Assembly: GCF_900890425.1 (NCBI RefSeq)
Contig: NZ_CAAHFG010000001.1
Location: 868,001-932,000 of the forward strand
Length of the DNA: 64,000 nucleotides
Direction: 5' to 3'
From: Pontiella desulfatans
GTDB taxonomy: Bacteria; Verrucomicrobiota; Kiritimatiellia; Kiritimatiellales; Pontiellaceae
The notes beneath the pieces were generated by a model. The model saw nothing but the letters and a program-made list of their open reading frames with translations. It was not told the origin of the DNA and searched no databases. The position numbers were made by a program, and so were the translations under genes. Positions 8,787-58,769 of the stretch are shown here, in pieces. The first letter of the stretch is position 1. Every line of letters begins with the position of its first letter.

Positions 8787-8862
<76 letters not shown>

Positions 8863-8876
<14 letters not shown>

Positions 8877-9051
8877 TAAATCTGTTTTTGAGCCAACGGC
8901 GTCCCCAACCTGACTTGAGATACCGCTCTCTCTTTTCCGCTGTGTTCCTGTCTGGATGTTCCTCCAGAAAAACCCGCTCCCAAGGGCGGAAAGCCTTGGT
9001 CGATTTTACTCGGCCCGCATTGTGCGATTTTAAGCGCTCATCGGGCGGTGC
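8863..9051 (-). pseudogene. GIY-YIG nuclease C-terminal fragment overlapping tRNA-Ser
   Basis: Reading minus strand from about 9051 gives 62 residues including ERLKSHNAGRVKSTK, then FRPWERVFLEEHPDRNTAEK and REKYLKSG-like [15 protein letters not shown]. This is the second half of UPF0213/GIY-YIG single-domain nucleases, with the conserved HN, the Arg and the catalytic Glu region. The GIY and YIG motifs of the first half are absent; upstream in frame is sequence derived from a tRNA copy and a palindrome. The frame stops at 8863-8865 inside the tRNA 5-prime end. No start codon or binding site is convincing, so it is treated as a remnant. Confidence 0.6.
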
Positions 9052-9112
9052 CTTAAACCCGCGTGATGGCTCTTCGAGCCAAACGCGGCCGTCTGCACTC
9101 AGACATCTCTCC
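9047..9112 (-). repeat. Partial tRNA-Ser copy interrupted by a palindrome
   Basis: Positions 9096-9112 repeat exactly the first 17 nt of the tRNA-Ser gene, and 9047-9059 repeat the D-arm part that follows it in the tRNA with one change. Between them lie 36 extra bases (9060-9095) that fold on themselves: outer CGCG/CGCG and inner GGCTC-TTC-GAGCC. The rest of the tRNA is not recognisable, so this is a fragment and not a working gene. Confidence 0.6.
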
Positions 9113-23670: not shown

Positions 23671-23682
23671 TCCGCAGCGCAT

Positions 23683-23788
23683 GTGCCAACGGCACAACAC
23701 AACTTAGCCTTGGACGCAGTCCAAGGGGCATGGAGAAAAAGAACTATTTGCCCTGAATGGGCAACACAAGACGGCTGTTGTGCTGCCC
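23683..23788. repeat. Three tandem hairpins after the PEP-CTERM gene
   Basis: GTGCC-AAC-GGCAC (23683-23695), CCTTGGAC-GCA-GTCCAAGG (23708-23726) and an 11-bp stem with one mismatch, GGGCAACACAA / TTGTGCTGCCC (23759-23788). None has a strong T-tract. They could be REP-type palindromes, a processed RNA or a composite terminator for the two secreted-protein genes. Confidence 0.5.
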
Positions 23789-47804: not shown

Positions 47805-48098
47805 ATGAGACTGTTGAAACAGGAAAAGAAGGCGTTAGCCCATGCGCTTGCTGGAGTCAATGGAGAGGTGTATTTGTACGGGTCGCGCACGGATGACAGC
47901 AAAAAAGGCGGGGACATTGATGTGCTTGTTTTCGCCCGCGTTGACTCGCCATATCGTCTTTCCCAAGACATTTCTGTCCGGTTCCGAATGGAGTGCGATG
48001 AAAAAATCGACGTTTTAGTGGTCAACCCCGATTCCATCCCTGAATCACAGAAGAGTTTTATCTCGCTGATCCAGGAGGATGCCGTTGCAATACAATGA
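47805..48098 (+). CDS. mntA: MNT-domain nucleotidyltransferase antitoxin
   Basis: 97 residues. VYLYGSRTDDSKKGGDIDVL is the GSx10DxD polymerase-beta site. Paired with the HEPN gene that overlaps it by 4 bp. In MntA/HepT systems the antitoxin modifies the toxin by AMP transfer (family knowledge). Confidence 0.88.
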   Translation: MRLLKQEKKALAHALAGVNGEVYLYGSRTDDSKKGGDIDVLVFARVDSPYRLSQDISVRFRMECDEKIDVLVVNPDSIPESQKSFISLIQEDAVAIQ

Positions 48099-48544
48099 GT
48101 GCGAATAAACAAGCTGAGATTACCCGCCACGGCCGGCAAAAAATGAATGATGCGGTTGCGCTGGTTCAGGCGTCTTTAAATAAGCTGAAGCCTTACGACG
48201 AGAAGCATGCATATAGTGCCGACGAGAGCGAGCCGTATGATGCGCTCAGCGACCGCTTTATCCGGGCGGTTGAGGTGGGCATCAAATTTTTCCGGAGTTA
48301 TGAGCGGTTGCAGTTCGCCGAAAATTCGGACGCGTTGCGCGATTTACTCAATCGGATGGAAAAGCTTGAGATGATCAGCTCGGTCGAGGTCTGGTTCAGA
48401 ATGCGGGATGTGAGAAACCGGATCGTGCATGACTATCTGCCGCATGAAATAAAAATCATGTATGATGACATCATGGGGCTGTTCGGACAGGAACTGGTCG
48501 GGTGCGCCGAAAAGGCACGCCAAGTCAGTCTGGATGAACCATAA
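48095..48544 (+). CDS. hepT: HepT-like HEPN toxin
   Basis: 149 residues, helical, with RDVRNRIVHDYLPHE carrying the Rx4H ribonuclease motif near residues 108-113. Longer than the minimal HepT by an N-terminal helix. Probable tRNA/mRNA nuclease held inactive by the neighbour. Confidence 0.86.
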   Translation: MSANKQAEITRHGRQKMNDAVALVQASLNKLKPYDEKHAYSADESEPYDALSDRFIRAVEVGIKFFRSYERLQFAENSDALRDLLNRMEKLEMISSVEVWFRMRDVRNRIVHDYLPHEIKIMYDDIMGLFGQELVGCAEKARQVSLDEP

Positions 48545-50670: not shown

Positions 50671-50815
50671 GGGAGTTGTGGAGTGTGGGTGTACGGGAGT
50701 TTTGGGTAAGGGAGTTGTGGAGTAAAGGTGTCGGTTTTTTTCCTCTGGCTCGTAGTGAGTAAGGAGTTTTGGATGTTACACCATTGCTCCGATACAAAAA
50801 GAAACGGAGTGAAAC
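50671..50815. repeat. G-rich variable words left of the split 4HB gene (copy 1)
   Basis: Words such as GGGAGTTGTGGAGTGTGGG and GGGTAAGGGAGTTGTGGAG at 50669-50730. The C-rich counterpart lies at 51541-51610 (ACTCCCATAAACACG and on), so the pair flanks the gene in inverted orientation. Confidence 0.6.
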
Positions 50816-51034
50816 ATGGGTGAATTTGCTAATAGTTTCCGAGATCTGGATGTGTATCAAGATGCATTAAACTTGTCCTTGGATATTCATGAGTTTGCTA
50901 AATCCCTTCCAATAGAAGAGCGGTACGTTCTCGCGGATCAAATGCGTCGAGCTTCTCGCTCCGTGCCAGCTAATATTTCCGAGGCGTGGCTTCCTGCTCG
51001 TAGAGATATGTATGTTTGTTGTGTATGCAATTGA
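50816..51034 (+). pseudogene. Four-helix-bundle protein, N-terminal half (split copy 1)
   Basis: Codes for RDLDVYQDALNLSLDIHEFA, RYVLADQMRRASRSVPANIS and EAW, the first half of a 4HB protein, then enters the insert at 50990 and stops at 51032-51034 after 14 foreign codons. The ORF is intact up to the insertion point. Its stop overlaps the start of the nuclease gene at 51012, so translation of the nuclease may be coupled to it. Whether the half protein is functional, alone or with the C-terminal half, is unknown. Confidence 0.75.
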
Positions 51035-51277
51035 AAGTTATTCGACAGGGCGAGTATACATTGGCCAGACGCAAGATATTGATGCTCGCCTTAGGCTTCA
51101 TAATCTCGGGCGCGTTAAATCAACATCTAAAGGTGGAGTGTGGCATCTTGTAGCACTGGAAAGCTTTGAAACGAGAGATCAAGCTCGCTGGTGCGAGACT
51201 TTGCTGAAGAGATCACTTGGGCGACGTTTAAAATGGTTGCAACAACACAAAATATAGTTCGCATACAGCTTGGAGAG
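50990..51277 (+). mobile_element. 288-bp GIY-YIG insert in a four-helix-bundle gene (copy 1)
   Basis: Bounds are inferred from the host protein: GAG GCG TGG before (EAW) and CGC AAA CGT after (RKRRY), which together restore the family motif. By eye the 288 bp are identical to 58278-58565. The 52 bp of host sequence starting GAAGAGCGGTACG are identical too, while the rest of the host gene differs. The nuclease gene fills all but 22 bp at the left and 20 bp at the right, leaving no room for a group I or II intron. Confidence 0.75.
51012..51257 (+). CDS. GIY-YIG nuclease inside split 4HB gene (copy 1)
   Basis: 81 residues. FVVYAIESYSTGRVYIGQTQ gives the GIY (YAI) and YIG motifs; DIDARLRLHNLGRVKSTSKG contains the active-site Arg and the HN; then FETRDQARWCETLLKRSLG with the catalytic Glu. 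Single-domain UPF0213-like, without a DNA-binding extension. It is a candidate homing nuclease because the same gene sits at the same place in two 4HB genes. Confidence 0.85.
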   Translation: MFVVYAIESYSTGRVYIGQTQDIDARLRLHNLGRVKSTSKGGVWHLVALESFETRDQARWCETLLKRSLGRRLKWLQQHKI

Positions 51278-51481
51278 CGCAAACGTAGATATAAAGCCGC
51301 ATTTATTGCTAAATTGAGTGATTCTGAAACAGAGGCATCTGAAATGCAGTGCTGGCTGGACTTTTCTTTAAAAGCCAAGTTTATGGGTCAGGCCGTGTAT
51401 GAAGGTTTTGATAAGCGATATGAACGCATTATCGGTCAACTTGTGACGATGATCGACGGAGCCGAAAAATGGTGTCGTTAG
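51233..51481 (+). pseudogene. Four-helix-bundle protein, C-terminal half (split copy 1)
   Basis: From 51278 the frame codes for RKRRYKAAFIAKLSDSETEA, SEMQCWLDFSLKAKF and DKRYERIIGQLVTMIDGAEK to WCR. This is the second half of the 4HB protein, in the same frame as the first. An ATG at 51233 (or 51191), within the nuclease gene, could start it by coupling. Differences from copy 2 are mostly silent or conservative, so the half was under selection until recently. Confidence 0.7.
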
Positions 51482-51622
51482 GTGTGAAGCTCTCGACTCG
51501 AACCGTTGTGCGTGCAGAGATGTCTGATGGAAGAACGGCCACTCCCATAAACACGTATACTCATACTCCCTTACGCAACTTCCCCGGTACTCCCATACCC
51601 CACAACCCCCAGACGTGAATTT
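51482..51622. repeat. C-rich variable words right of the split 4HB gene (copy 1)
   Basis: 51541-51610 has ACTCATACTCCCTTACG, GGTACTCCCATACCCCAC and similar, the complement style of the G-rich words at 50671-50730. Non-coding. Confidence 0.6.
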
Positions 51623-55705: not shown

Positions 55706-55717
55706 ATGTTATGCATA

Positions 55718-55746
55718 TTGACAGACGTATTGGGTGGGCATATTGT
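55718..55746 (+). promoter_or_regulatory. Sigma-70-type promoter of the PIN toxin-antitoxin pair
   Basis: Consensus -35 TTGACA (55718-55723), 17-bp spacer, -10 TATTGT (55741-55746). The ATG of the antitoxin begins 8 bases after the -10, so the transcript would be leaderless or nearly so; no ribosome-binding site is visible. Confidence 0.6.
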
Positions 55747-55753
55747 ACGTCAC

Positions 55754-55993
55754 ATGAACTCAAAGCTTACATTACGCATGGATGAGGGGTTGATTGCCTT
55801 GGCCAAGGCCGAGGCGGCGCAACGCGGAAAATCGGTATCGCAGATGATTGGGGAGTTTATTGATGTGCTTGGCCATGCAGAGAAATCGAAAGGAAAACTT
55901 CCGCCGGTGACGTCCTCGCTGCGCGGTGTGCTCAAGGGATCAGATGTTTCGGAAGAGTCGCATAAAAAGCACCTGAGGGAAAAATACGGGTGA
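55754..55993 (+). CDS. Antitoxin of a VapBC-like pair (DUF6364-like)
   Basis: 79 residues from the ATG at 55754. KLTLRMDEGLIALAKAEAAQ, RGKSVSQMIGEFIDVLG is a ribbon-helix-helix N-terminus; the C-terminal part would block the toxin. Overlaps the PIN gene by 4 bp. Confidence 0.85.
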   Translation: MNSKLTLRMDEGLIALAKAEAAQRGKSVSQMIGEFIDVLGHAEKSKGKLPPVTSSLRGVLKGSDVSEESHKKHLREKYG

Positions 55994-56403
55994 TCATTTT
56001 GGTCGATACCAATGTGGTTTTGGATTTGCTACTGGATCGCGTTCCTTTTTCGGAATCCGCCGCTCATGTTTTTTCTTTGATCGAAAAATCTGAGGTAGAG
56101 GCGTTTCTCTGCGCGACGACGATAACAACCATCGACTATTTGTTGACCCAATCCATGCCCCGCCCGGCCGCGAAGAAAGCGTTGCAACGCCTCATGGTAC
56201 TCTTTGAAATCGCTCCCGTTAACCGCCCGGTAATCGAGGAAGCGCTACGGGGGCGCATGGATGGTTTTGAAGATGCTGTTTTGGCTCATGCGGCACATCT
56301 GGTTGGCGCAACGACTGTGGTTACGCGGAATACAAAAGACTTCCGGAATTCCCCGGTCAAGGCCATGGATCCTGTATCATTCCTGTCCGCCTTCAACCCA
56401 TAA
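55990..56403 (+). CDS. PIN-domain toxin (VapC-like)
   Basis: 137 residues from a GTG at 55990. IILVDTNVVLDLLLDR (first Asp), ATTITTIDYLLTQ, GFEDAVLAHAAHLVGA (Glu/Asp) and VTRNTKDFRNSPVKAMDP, the fourth acidic site. RNase of the PIN family. Confidence 0.88.
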   Translation: MIILVDTNVVLDLLLDRVPFSESAAHVFSLIEKSEVEAFLCATTITTIDYLLTQSMPRPAAKKALQRLMVLFEIAPVNRPVIEEALRGRMDGFEDAVLAHAAHLVGATTVVTRNTKDFRNSPVKAMDPVSFLSAFNP

Positions 56404-58103: not shown

Positions 58104-58322
58104 ATGGGTGAGTTTGCGAAAAGTTTTCGGGATTTGGACGTGTATCAGGAGTCTTTGGCTCTTACTTTGGAAATCCATGAATTTGCCAAAACCCTCCCGT
58201 CTGAAGAGCGGTACGTTCTCGCGGATCAAATGCGTCGAGCTTCTCGCTCCGTGCCTGCCAATATTTCCGAGGCTTGGCTTCCTGCTCGTAGAGATATGTA
58301 TGTTTGTTGTGTATGCAATTGA
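58104..58322 (+). pseudogene. Four-helix-bundle protein, N-terminal half (split copy 2)
   Basis: RDLDVYQESLALTLEIHEFA, RYVLADQMRRASRSVPANIS, EAW, then insert codons and stop at 58320-58322, exactly as in copy 1. The first 100 bp differ from copy 1 at many third positions; the 52 bp from GAAGAGCGGTACG onward are identical, suggesting co-conversion. Confidence 0.75.
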
Positions 58323-58565
58323 AAGTTATTCGACAGGGCGAGTATACATTGGCCAGACGCAAGATATTGATGCTCGCCTTAGGCTTCATAATCTCGGGCG
58401 CGTTAAATCAACATCTAAAGGTGGAGTGTGGCATCTTGTAGCACTGGAAAGCTTTGAAACGAGAGATCAAGCTCGCTGGTGCGAGACTTTGCTGAAGAGA
58501 TCACTTGGGCGACGTTTAAAATGGTTGCAACAACACAAAATATAGTTCGCATACAGCTTGGAGAG
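58278..58565 (+). mobile_element. 288-bp GIY-YIG insert in a four-helix-bundle gene (copy 2)
   Basis: Same length, place and, by reading, same sequence as 50990-51277. Flanked by GAG GCT TGG and CGT AAG CGG CGC, which give the same EAW and RKRR residues as copy 1 with different codons. Confidence 0.75.
58300..58545 (+). CDS. GIY-YIG nuclease inside split 4HB gene (copy 2)
   Basis: 81 residues identical to the protein at 51012-51257, start ATG overlapping the stop of the N-terminal half. Longer upstream in-frame codons come from the C-rich words and host gene in another frame and are not expected to be native. Confidence 0.83.
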   Translation: MFVVYAIESYSTGRVYIGQTQDIDARLRLHNLGRVKSTSKGGVWHLVALESFETRDQARWCETLLKRSLGRRLKWLQQHKI

Positions 58566-58769
58566 CGTAAGCGGCGCTATAAAGCTGCATTCATCGCAAA
58601 ACTGAGTGATGCGGAGACTGAAGCCGCAGAGATGCAATGCTGGCTGGATTTCTCTTTGAAAGCGAATTATATGGATCAGACAAAGTATTCGGATTTTGAT
58701 CGACGATACGAAAGGATCATATCACAAATAGTGACCATGATTGATGGAGCTGATAAATGGTGCCGATGA
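58521..58769 (+). pseudogene. Four-helix-bundle protein, C-terminal half (split copy 2)
   Basis: From 58566: RKRRYKAAFIAKLSDAETEA, AEMQCWLDFSLKANY, DRRYERIISQIVTMIDGADK and WCR. Roughly 80 percent identical to copy 1 in protein with many silent changes in DNA. Possible restart at the ATG 58521 inside the nuclease gene. Confidence 0.7.

Follow-up and report, generated by a model that had tools for sequence, protein, structure and literature searches.

A probable minimal, intron-less GIY-YIG homing element faithful to one site of bacterial four-helix-bundle genes

Two paralogous genes for four-helix-bundle (4HB) proteins in the genome of Pontiella desulfatans are split after the same codon by the same short insert, which encodes a small GIY-YIG nuclease, and the question is what kind of element this insert is and by what route it came to occupy both genes. 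The window, by which we mean the whole stretch of 64,000 nucleotides that was analysed (C1:868001-932000 of the 8.66-Mb genome), contains the two genes, here called copy A and copy B, with the following features.

50816-51481, + strand: copy A, split 4HB gene with insert, 666 bp
50816..50989, + strand: copy A, 4HB N half (PF05635 profile 1-50, E 3.7e-16)
50915..50967, + strand: copy A, putative co-conversion tract of 53 bp without differences from copy B (A/B alignment)
50987..51003, + strand: conserved left end TGGCTTCCTGCTCGTAG, counted from the host TGG codon (comparison with L053-L057, L060 and L074)
50990..51277, + strand: copy A, 288-bp insert between TGG (EAW) and CGC (RKRRY) (A/B alignment; uninterrupted homologs)
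51012..51257, + strand: copy A, GIY-YIG nuclease gene, 81 aa (PF01541, E 2.8e-12; invariant residues)
51261..51277, + strand: conserved right end GCATACAGCTTGGAGAG (comparison with related elements)
51278..51481, + strand: copy A, 4HB C half (PF05635 profile 49-104)
58104-58769, + strand: copy B, split 4HB gene with insert, 666 bp
58104..58277, + strand: copy B, 4HB N half (PF05635, E 7.2e-17)
58203..58255, + strand: copy B, 53-bp tract, same as in copy A (A/B alignment)
58278..58565, + strand: copy B, 288-bp insert, same as in copy A (A/B alignment)
58300..58545, + strand: copy B, GIY-YIG nuclease gene, 81 aa (ORF reading)
58566..58769, + strand: copy B, 4HB C half (PF05635, E 1.1e-8)

Both hosts belong to the family named 23S_rRNA_IVP in Pfam, and the insert follows the same Trp codon in each. 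As the first-pass annotation of this DNA had reported, the two inserts are identical: copies A and B align without gaps over 666 bp with 89 differences, none of them in the insert, and their longest identical run extends over 293 bp (50987-51279). Host identity between them is 70.7% over the first 99 bp and 72.6% over the C half. The identical stretch of host flank described in the annotation is present, with a length of 53 rather than 52 bp, and three mismatches that had gone unmentioned (50968, 50971 and 50986, all third-codon and silent) separate it from the insert. At a host divergence of 28%, the probability of a 293-bp identical run arising by chance is about 1e-42, and that of the 53-bp tract about 3e-8. 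The host differences include amino-acid changes as well as the silent ones that had been noted. The paralogs lie 7.3 kb apart, and the DNA flanking them is not collinear beyond the genes. In the whole genome the insert is present in two copies, both in 4HB genes, with no copies at many unrelated sites of the kind expected for an insertion sequence; among about eleven 4HB loci, A and B only are split. Upstream of the 4HB genes stands a G/T-rich tract specific to each locus, and downstream an imperfect reverse complement of that tract (window 50671-50731 and 51551-51610 at copy A); the score of the pair exceeds that of 300/300 shuffled sequences at A, B, L128, L001 and L055, and does not at L053 and L054.

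The element consists of the nuclease gene and about 20 bp at each end, only 42 of its 288 bp being non-coding. The domain that it encodes is that of a homing nuclease family, with the active-site residues in place: Y5, Y16, G18, R26, H30, N31 and E62 are invariant among its relatives, and the usual GIY-YIG active-site positions, R26 and E62 among them, are kept. The 81-residue protein is limited to the GIY-YIG domain and lacks the DNA-binding domain of typical GIY-YIG homing enzymes. Proteins of the UPF0213/YhbQ-like group are stand-alone, of unknown function and not known from split genes. With these proteins the 4HB nuclease has in common the single small GIY-YIG domain, and members of the group are the closest solved structures by sequence (PDB 1ywl, 1zg2).

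The association of this nuclease with 4HB genes is not confined to the window. When relatives were sought in 388 genomes of the phylum, the three nearest (53-58% identical) were all located inside 4HB genes. A wider search through 84,980 species genomes, for which four nuclease proteins were aligned as the query, added further residents of split 4HB genes, in Pontiella sulfatireligans (74% identical), a Verrucomicrobia bin (68%, for the best segment only), Cloacimonadota (59%), Calditrichota (58%) and an unclassified bacterium (48%), so that the nearest relatives in split 4HB genes come from Kiritimatiellota, Verrucomicrobiota, Cloacimonadota and Calditrichota. (The contig of one related locus, L056, is also contained in G257, a genome of the same class.) Comparison of genomes with and without the insert, as the first-pass annotation had suggested, maps the insertion codon: in EAW-type hosts the insert stands directly after the Trp codon, and in two hosts of the NIAEGF type it stands about three codons upstream. 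One exception is L058, from Desulfobacteraceae, where a nuclease gene with 51% identity has no recognisable 4HB gene around it. The genus and the order also contain uninterrupted genes of the EAWRKRRY type, with 78% (G228, genus) and 80% (G029, order) identity to copy A. On a tree of 73 small GIY-YIG proteins, many forks of which are unresolved because the protein is short, the 4HB-inserted set requires 2 label changes, compared with a mean of 8.7 for shuffled labels, and none of 500 shuffles gave a value as low. Two apparent additional split 4HB genes, in G160 and G178, proved to be an ordinary frameshift and a 5' truncation, and neither contains a nuclease.

Hosts and inserts have had different histories. 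Across the related loci host identity ranges from 18 to 94%, and insert identity from 48 to 73%, and the discordance runs in both directions: between copy A and L055 the hosts are 18% identical and the inserts 58%, whereas between copy A and Pontiella sulfatireligans the hosts are 94% identical and the inserts 73%. For the latter pair the DNA of the host halves is 88% identical and that of the insert ORFs 70%, and synonymous divergence is greater in the insert than in the host (Fisher p 8e-5), from which it follows that, since the separation of the hosts, the inserts have not been passed down with them. A phage or plasmid origin was considered and rejected: comparison with phages gave only weak partial matches, several of which adjoin thymidylate synthase genes, matches in viral contigs were likewise weak, and plasmids gave no match.

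On the basis of these data, we consider it likely that the insert is a minimal intron-less GIY-YIG homing element, dedicated to one site in 4HB genes and moving between alleles and paralogs as well as across phyla. The nuclease would cut an uninterrupted 4HB gene, and the break would be repaired from an occupied copy, with transfer of the insert and some of the flank; in this way the element could travel between the 4HB alleles and paralogs of one cell and also horizontally between phyla. DNA cleavage and double-strand-break repair are here deduced from sequence comparison. In the window, one paralog would have been converted very recently from the other, or both from the same donor lineage. 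The first-pass annotation had likewise proposed homing with co-conversion, and the site fidelity, the discordant histories, the empty alleles and the 53-bp tract all support that proposal. What fits it less well is the nuclease gene of L058 outside a recognisable 4HB gene, the bare catalytic domain, and the form of the tract, which is patchy and one-sided.

This form, within N halves that are otherwise 71% identical, deserves closer consideration. In the 5' to 3' direction, the 53 bp common to A and B are followed by paralog-specific silent bases at -22, -19 and -4, by the common insert, and by differences from +3 onward. At -4, copy B has the base of an uninterrupted relative (L128). If the three differences were mutations acquired after the transfer, the chance that all of them would fall within 22 of the 368 otherwise identical sites is about 2e-4, which makes patchy conversion the likelier origin. 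The end of the identical tract suggests a nuclease cut approximately 22-23 bp upstream of the insertion; with a break near -22/-23, the right-hand end would pair across the looped insert while the left is copied, which would yield the patchy tract observed. The shared bases match both lineages and so fit a transfer from A to B as well as one from B to A.

Ordinary gene conversion by RecA between paralogs that had the site in common already, with the insert as a passenger and the nuclease uninvolved, would also be compatible with the tract. Homogenisation of 53 bp outside the insert and the location of both paralogs in one region, 7.3 kb from each other, are in keeping with such conversion, yet it explains neither why diverged inserts occupy the same 4HB codon in four phyla, in discordance with their hosts, nor why conversion ends at the 3' end of the insert, and we regard it as rather improbable. 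A single old segmental duplication, or a split gene inherited vertically, has in its favour little more than the proximity of the two split copies, and the probability that we attach to it is very small. The first-pass annotation had named a recent segmental duplication, and fixation of the insert by descent in all members, as findings that would overturn homing; the inserts are 100% identical against about 72% for the hosts, in surroundings that are not collinear, uninterrupted alleles exist, and host and insert divergence disagree between species. This discordance and the empty alleles together exclude both, and on these two counts the homing reading was not overturned. It is equally improbable that the insert is a tiny intron or a segment bypassed during translation, although it does lie between two open host halves: the annotation had argued that the insert has no room for a ribozyme, only 42 of its base pairs are non-coding, no Rfam intron was matched at either the gathering or a permissive threshold, and related elements contain stop codons and changes of frame. 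Neither is it an intein, given the stop codons in the insert and a nuclease frame that differs from that of the host N half.

A more serious competitor of the homing reading, though still an unlikely one, is a site-specific, transposon-like element, the GIY-YIG protein of which would recognise the ends of its own element and not the empty target. The ends are indeed conserved across phyla. The left one reads GGCTCCGCCCCGTAG in L054, L055, L057, L060 and L074, and in the window copies and L053 it takes the diverged form CTTCC(T/A)GCTCGTAG; the right one is CTACGCGCCGGAGGG or a variant of it across the related elements. Left GGCTCCGCCCCGTAG and right CTACGCGCCGGAG resemble imperfect inverted repeats, and L060 contains (1925-2000) an ORF-less miniature copy of 47 bp, a left end joined to a right end, which is stacked onto the full element on its left side. 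Against this, the pairing between element ends is no better than that of shuffled sequence (p 0.18-0.76), no target-site duplication was seen, and the ends are not dispersed: the left-end 15-mer, exact in five genomes, has no exact match away from the elements in the nine genomes searched, and in the same nine, matches to either end with one mismatch are no commoner elsewhere than those to a control pattern. Without enrichment beyond the elements the ends are not a dispersed repeat, and a REP-like or MITE-like dispersed palindrome is thereby ruled out as well. As a separate observation, the Pontiella sulfatireligans insert (L052 1945-1995) has within its left end, relative to the window, an additional short palindrome-like segment.

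There remains the fate of the interrupted host. None of the 4HB inserts carries 4HB codons that would restore the gene, and most likely the insertion inactivates the host or leaves it as two fragments. The three overlapping frames that the first-pass annotation had pointed out are present at copy A, where the N-half ORF continues inside the insert to a stop at 51034, the nuclease occupies 51012-51257, and the C-half ORF extends over 51191-51481. The split protein might thus be kept as a working two-piece protein through coupled translation of these frames, a possibility that we rate on a par with the transposon-like element. The frames overlap in A, B and Pontiella sulfatireligans, the nuclease stop overlapping the ATG of the C half in the last (ATGA), possible C-half starts lie within the nuclease gene in copy A (GTG 51191 or ATG 51233) and likewise in copy B, and dN/dS between copy A and Pontiella sulfatireligans is about 0.07 in each host half. 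The low ratio may, however, predate the insertion, the insert being more diverged than the host, and the C half shows no clear ribosome-binding site. Moreover, L053 and L055 lack a usual C-half start, the host of L056 is frameshifted, that of L074 is truncated, and that of L060 contains further insertions. Missing starts and decayed hosts mean that a working split protein is not a general property, although coupled translation is conceivable in the window copies and in Pontiella sulfatireligans.

With homing as the preferred reading, the element can be compared with known systems. Most of what is known of free-standing homing endonucleases comes from phages. Like intron-encoded enzymes such as I-TevI of the td intron, the 4HB nuclease has a GIY-YIG core and a gene inserted beside the presumed cut; I-TevI cuts upstream of its intron insertion site, a position that the cut proposed here at about 22-23 bp upstream would resemble. 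Unlike I-TevI, the 4HB element lacks a ribozyme as well as a linker and a DNA-binding domain, and leaves its host unrestored. Intron-encoded enzymes cut "within 25 bps" of the insertion (PMC2988022). Intronless homing by free-standing endonucleases has been described in T4-like phages (PMC2988022, PMC1564403, PMC3984707), where the Seg proteins likewise have a GIY-YIG domain, a gene outside any intron or intein, and gene conversion of the flanks (PMC2988022, PMC1564403). In contrast to these phage systems, the 4HB element is found in bacterial chromosomes and within coding sequence, has an insertion codon as its conserved address, and encodes a bare catalytic domain of 81 residues. Similar in layout are mobE in nrdA of phage Aeh1, where the split enzyme works, and mobA in gene 60 of T4, as intron-less homing endonuclease genes that split a host coding sequence (PMC2988022); these are HNH genes in phage hosts and the split NrdA is functional, whereas the 4HB nuclease is of the GIY-YIG type and its hosts are often decayed. 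The statement in the first-pass annotation that no such case had been described therefore needs amending, as both intronless homing and endonuclease-split genes have precedents in T4-like phages (PMC2988022). Insertions with a GIY-YIG ORF and no match to any intron have been reported from the rRNA genes of CPR bacteria, and the authors doubted homing (PMC11270868); they too are GIY-YIG ORFs in non-intron insertions of bacterial chromosomes, but with rRNA hosts and sparse sites, in place of one site in 4HB genes. We found no paper that pairs the phrase "four helix bundle protein" with GIY-YIG, which, with partial coverage of the literature, is weak evidence. What appears to be new is an intron-less homing-type element in bacterial chromosomes that is faithful to one site of one gene family. 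Two paralogs have apparently been caught just after conversion, the fidelity to the codon holds across phyla, and a testable question arises, namely how a nuclease of 81 residues without a DNA-binding domain finds a single site.

The relatives of the 4HB nuclease point to a broader setting. Among 81 small GIY-YIG loci examined (L018-L101, a few of them counted twice), 47 have a tRNA gene within 200 bp, in every case on the same strand. In 23, a direct repeat of 14 bp or more is common to the two flanks, and many of these repeats are pieces of tRNA. Duplicated tRNA pieces lie on both sides of the nuclease gene in L023, L026, L027, L033, L035, L063, L064 and L076, and in L033, L035 and L038 a palindromic segment breaks the anticodon loop of the displaced tRNA-Ser copy. 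Three further loci are tandem arrays of head-to-tail units, each consisting of a tRNA 3' end and a small GIY-YIG gene.

L161, G175:C160:35300-36900: tandem array, unit of 329 bp
L162, G251:C17:500-2200: tandem array, unit of 351 bp
L163, G175:C6:39500-41000: tandem array, unit of 413 bp

The units are 100% identical in two of the arrays and about 88% identical in one, and in L162 and L163 tandem tRNA 5' halves stand upstream of an intact tRNA gene. For and against evenly balanced, in our judgement, is the wider proposal that the small bacterial GIY-YIG genes with a single domain are for the larger part undescribed minimal target-specific mobile elements of about 290-415 bp, mostly in tRNA genes, which carry a restoring 3' (or 5') piece of the tRNA and are sometimes tandem, and that one branch switched to a fixed 4HB codon without restoring its host. 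The tRNA-targeting relatives would then form a broad family, the mobility of which is apparently undescribed in the literature searched.

Some other features of the window were recorded in passing. The ORF pairs at 47805-48544 and 55706-56403 resemble toxin-antitoxin modules (nucleotidyltransferase/HEPN-like and VapBC-like) in translations read by eye only. An Acido-Lenti-1 RNA is matched at the gathering threshold at 23682-23726 (- strand). A tRNA-Ser(TGA) gene at 8789-8876 (- strand) has ahead of it both a decayed remnant of a GIY-YIG gene (match 8887-9048) and a duplicated 5' fragment of the tRNA, GGAGAGATGTCTGAGTG (9096-9112, - strand).
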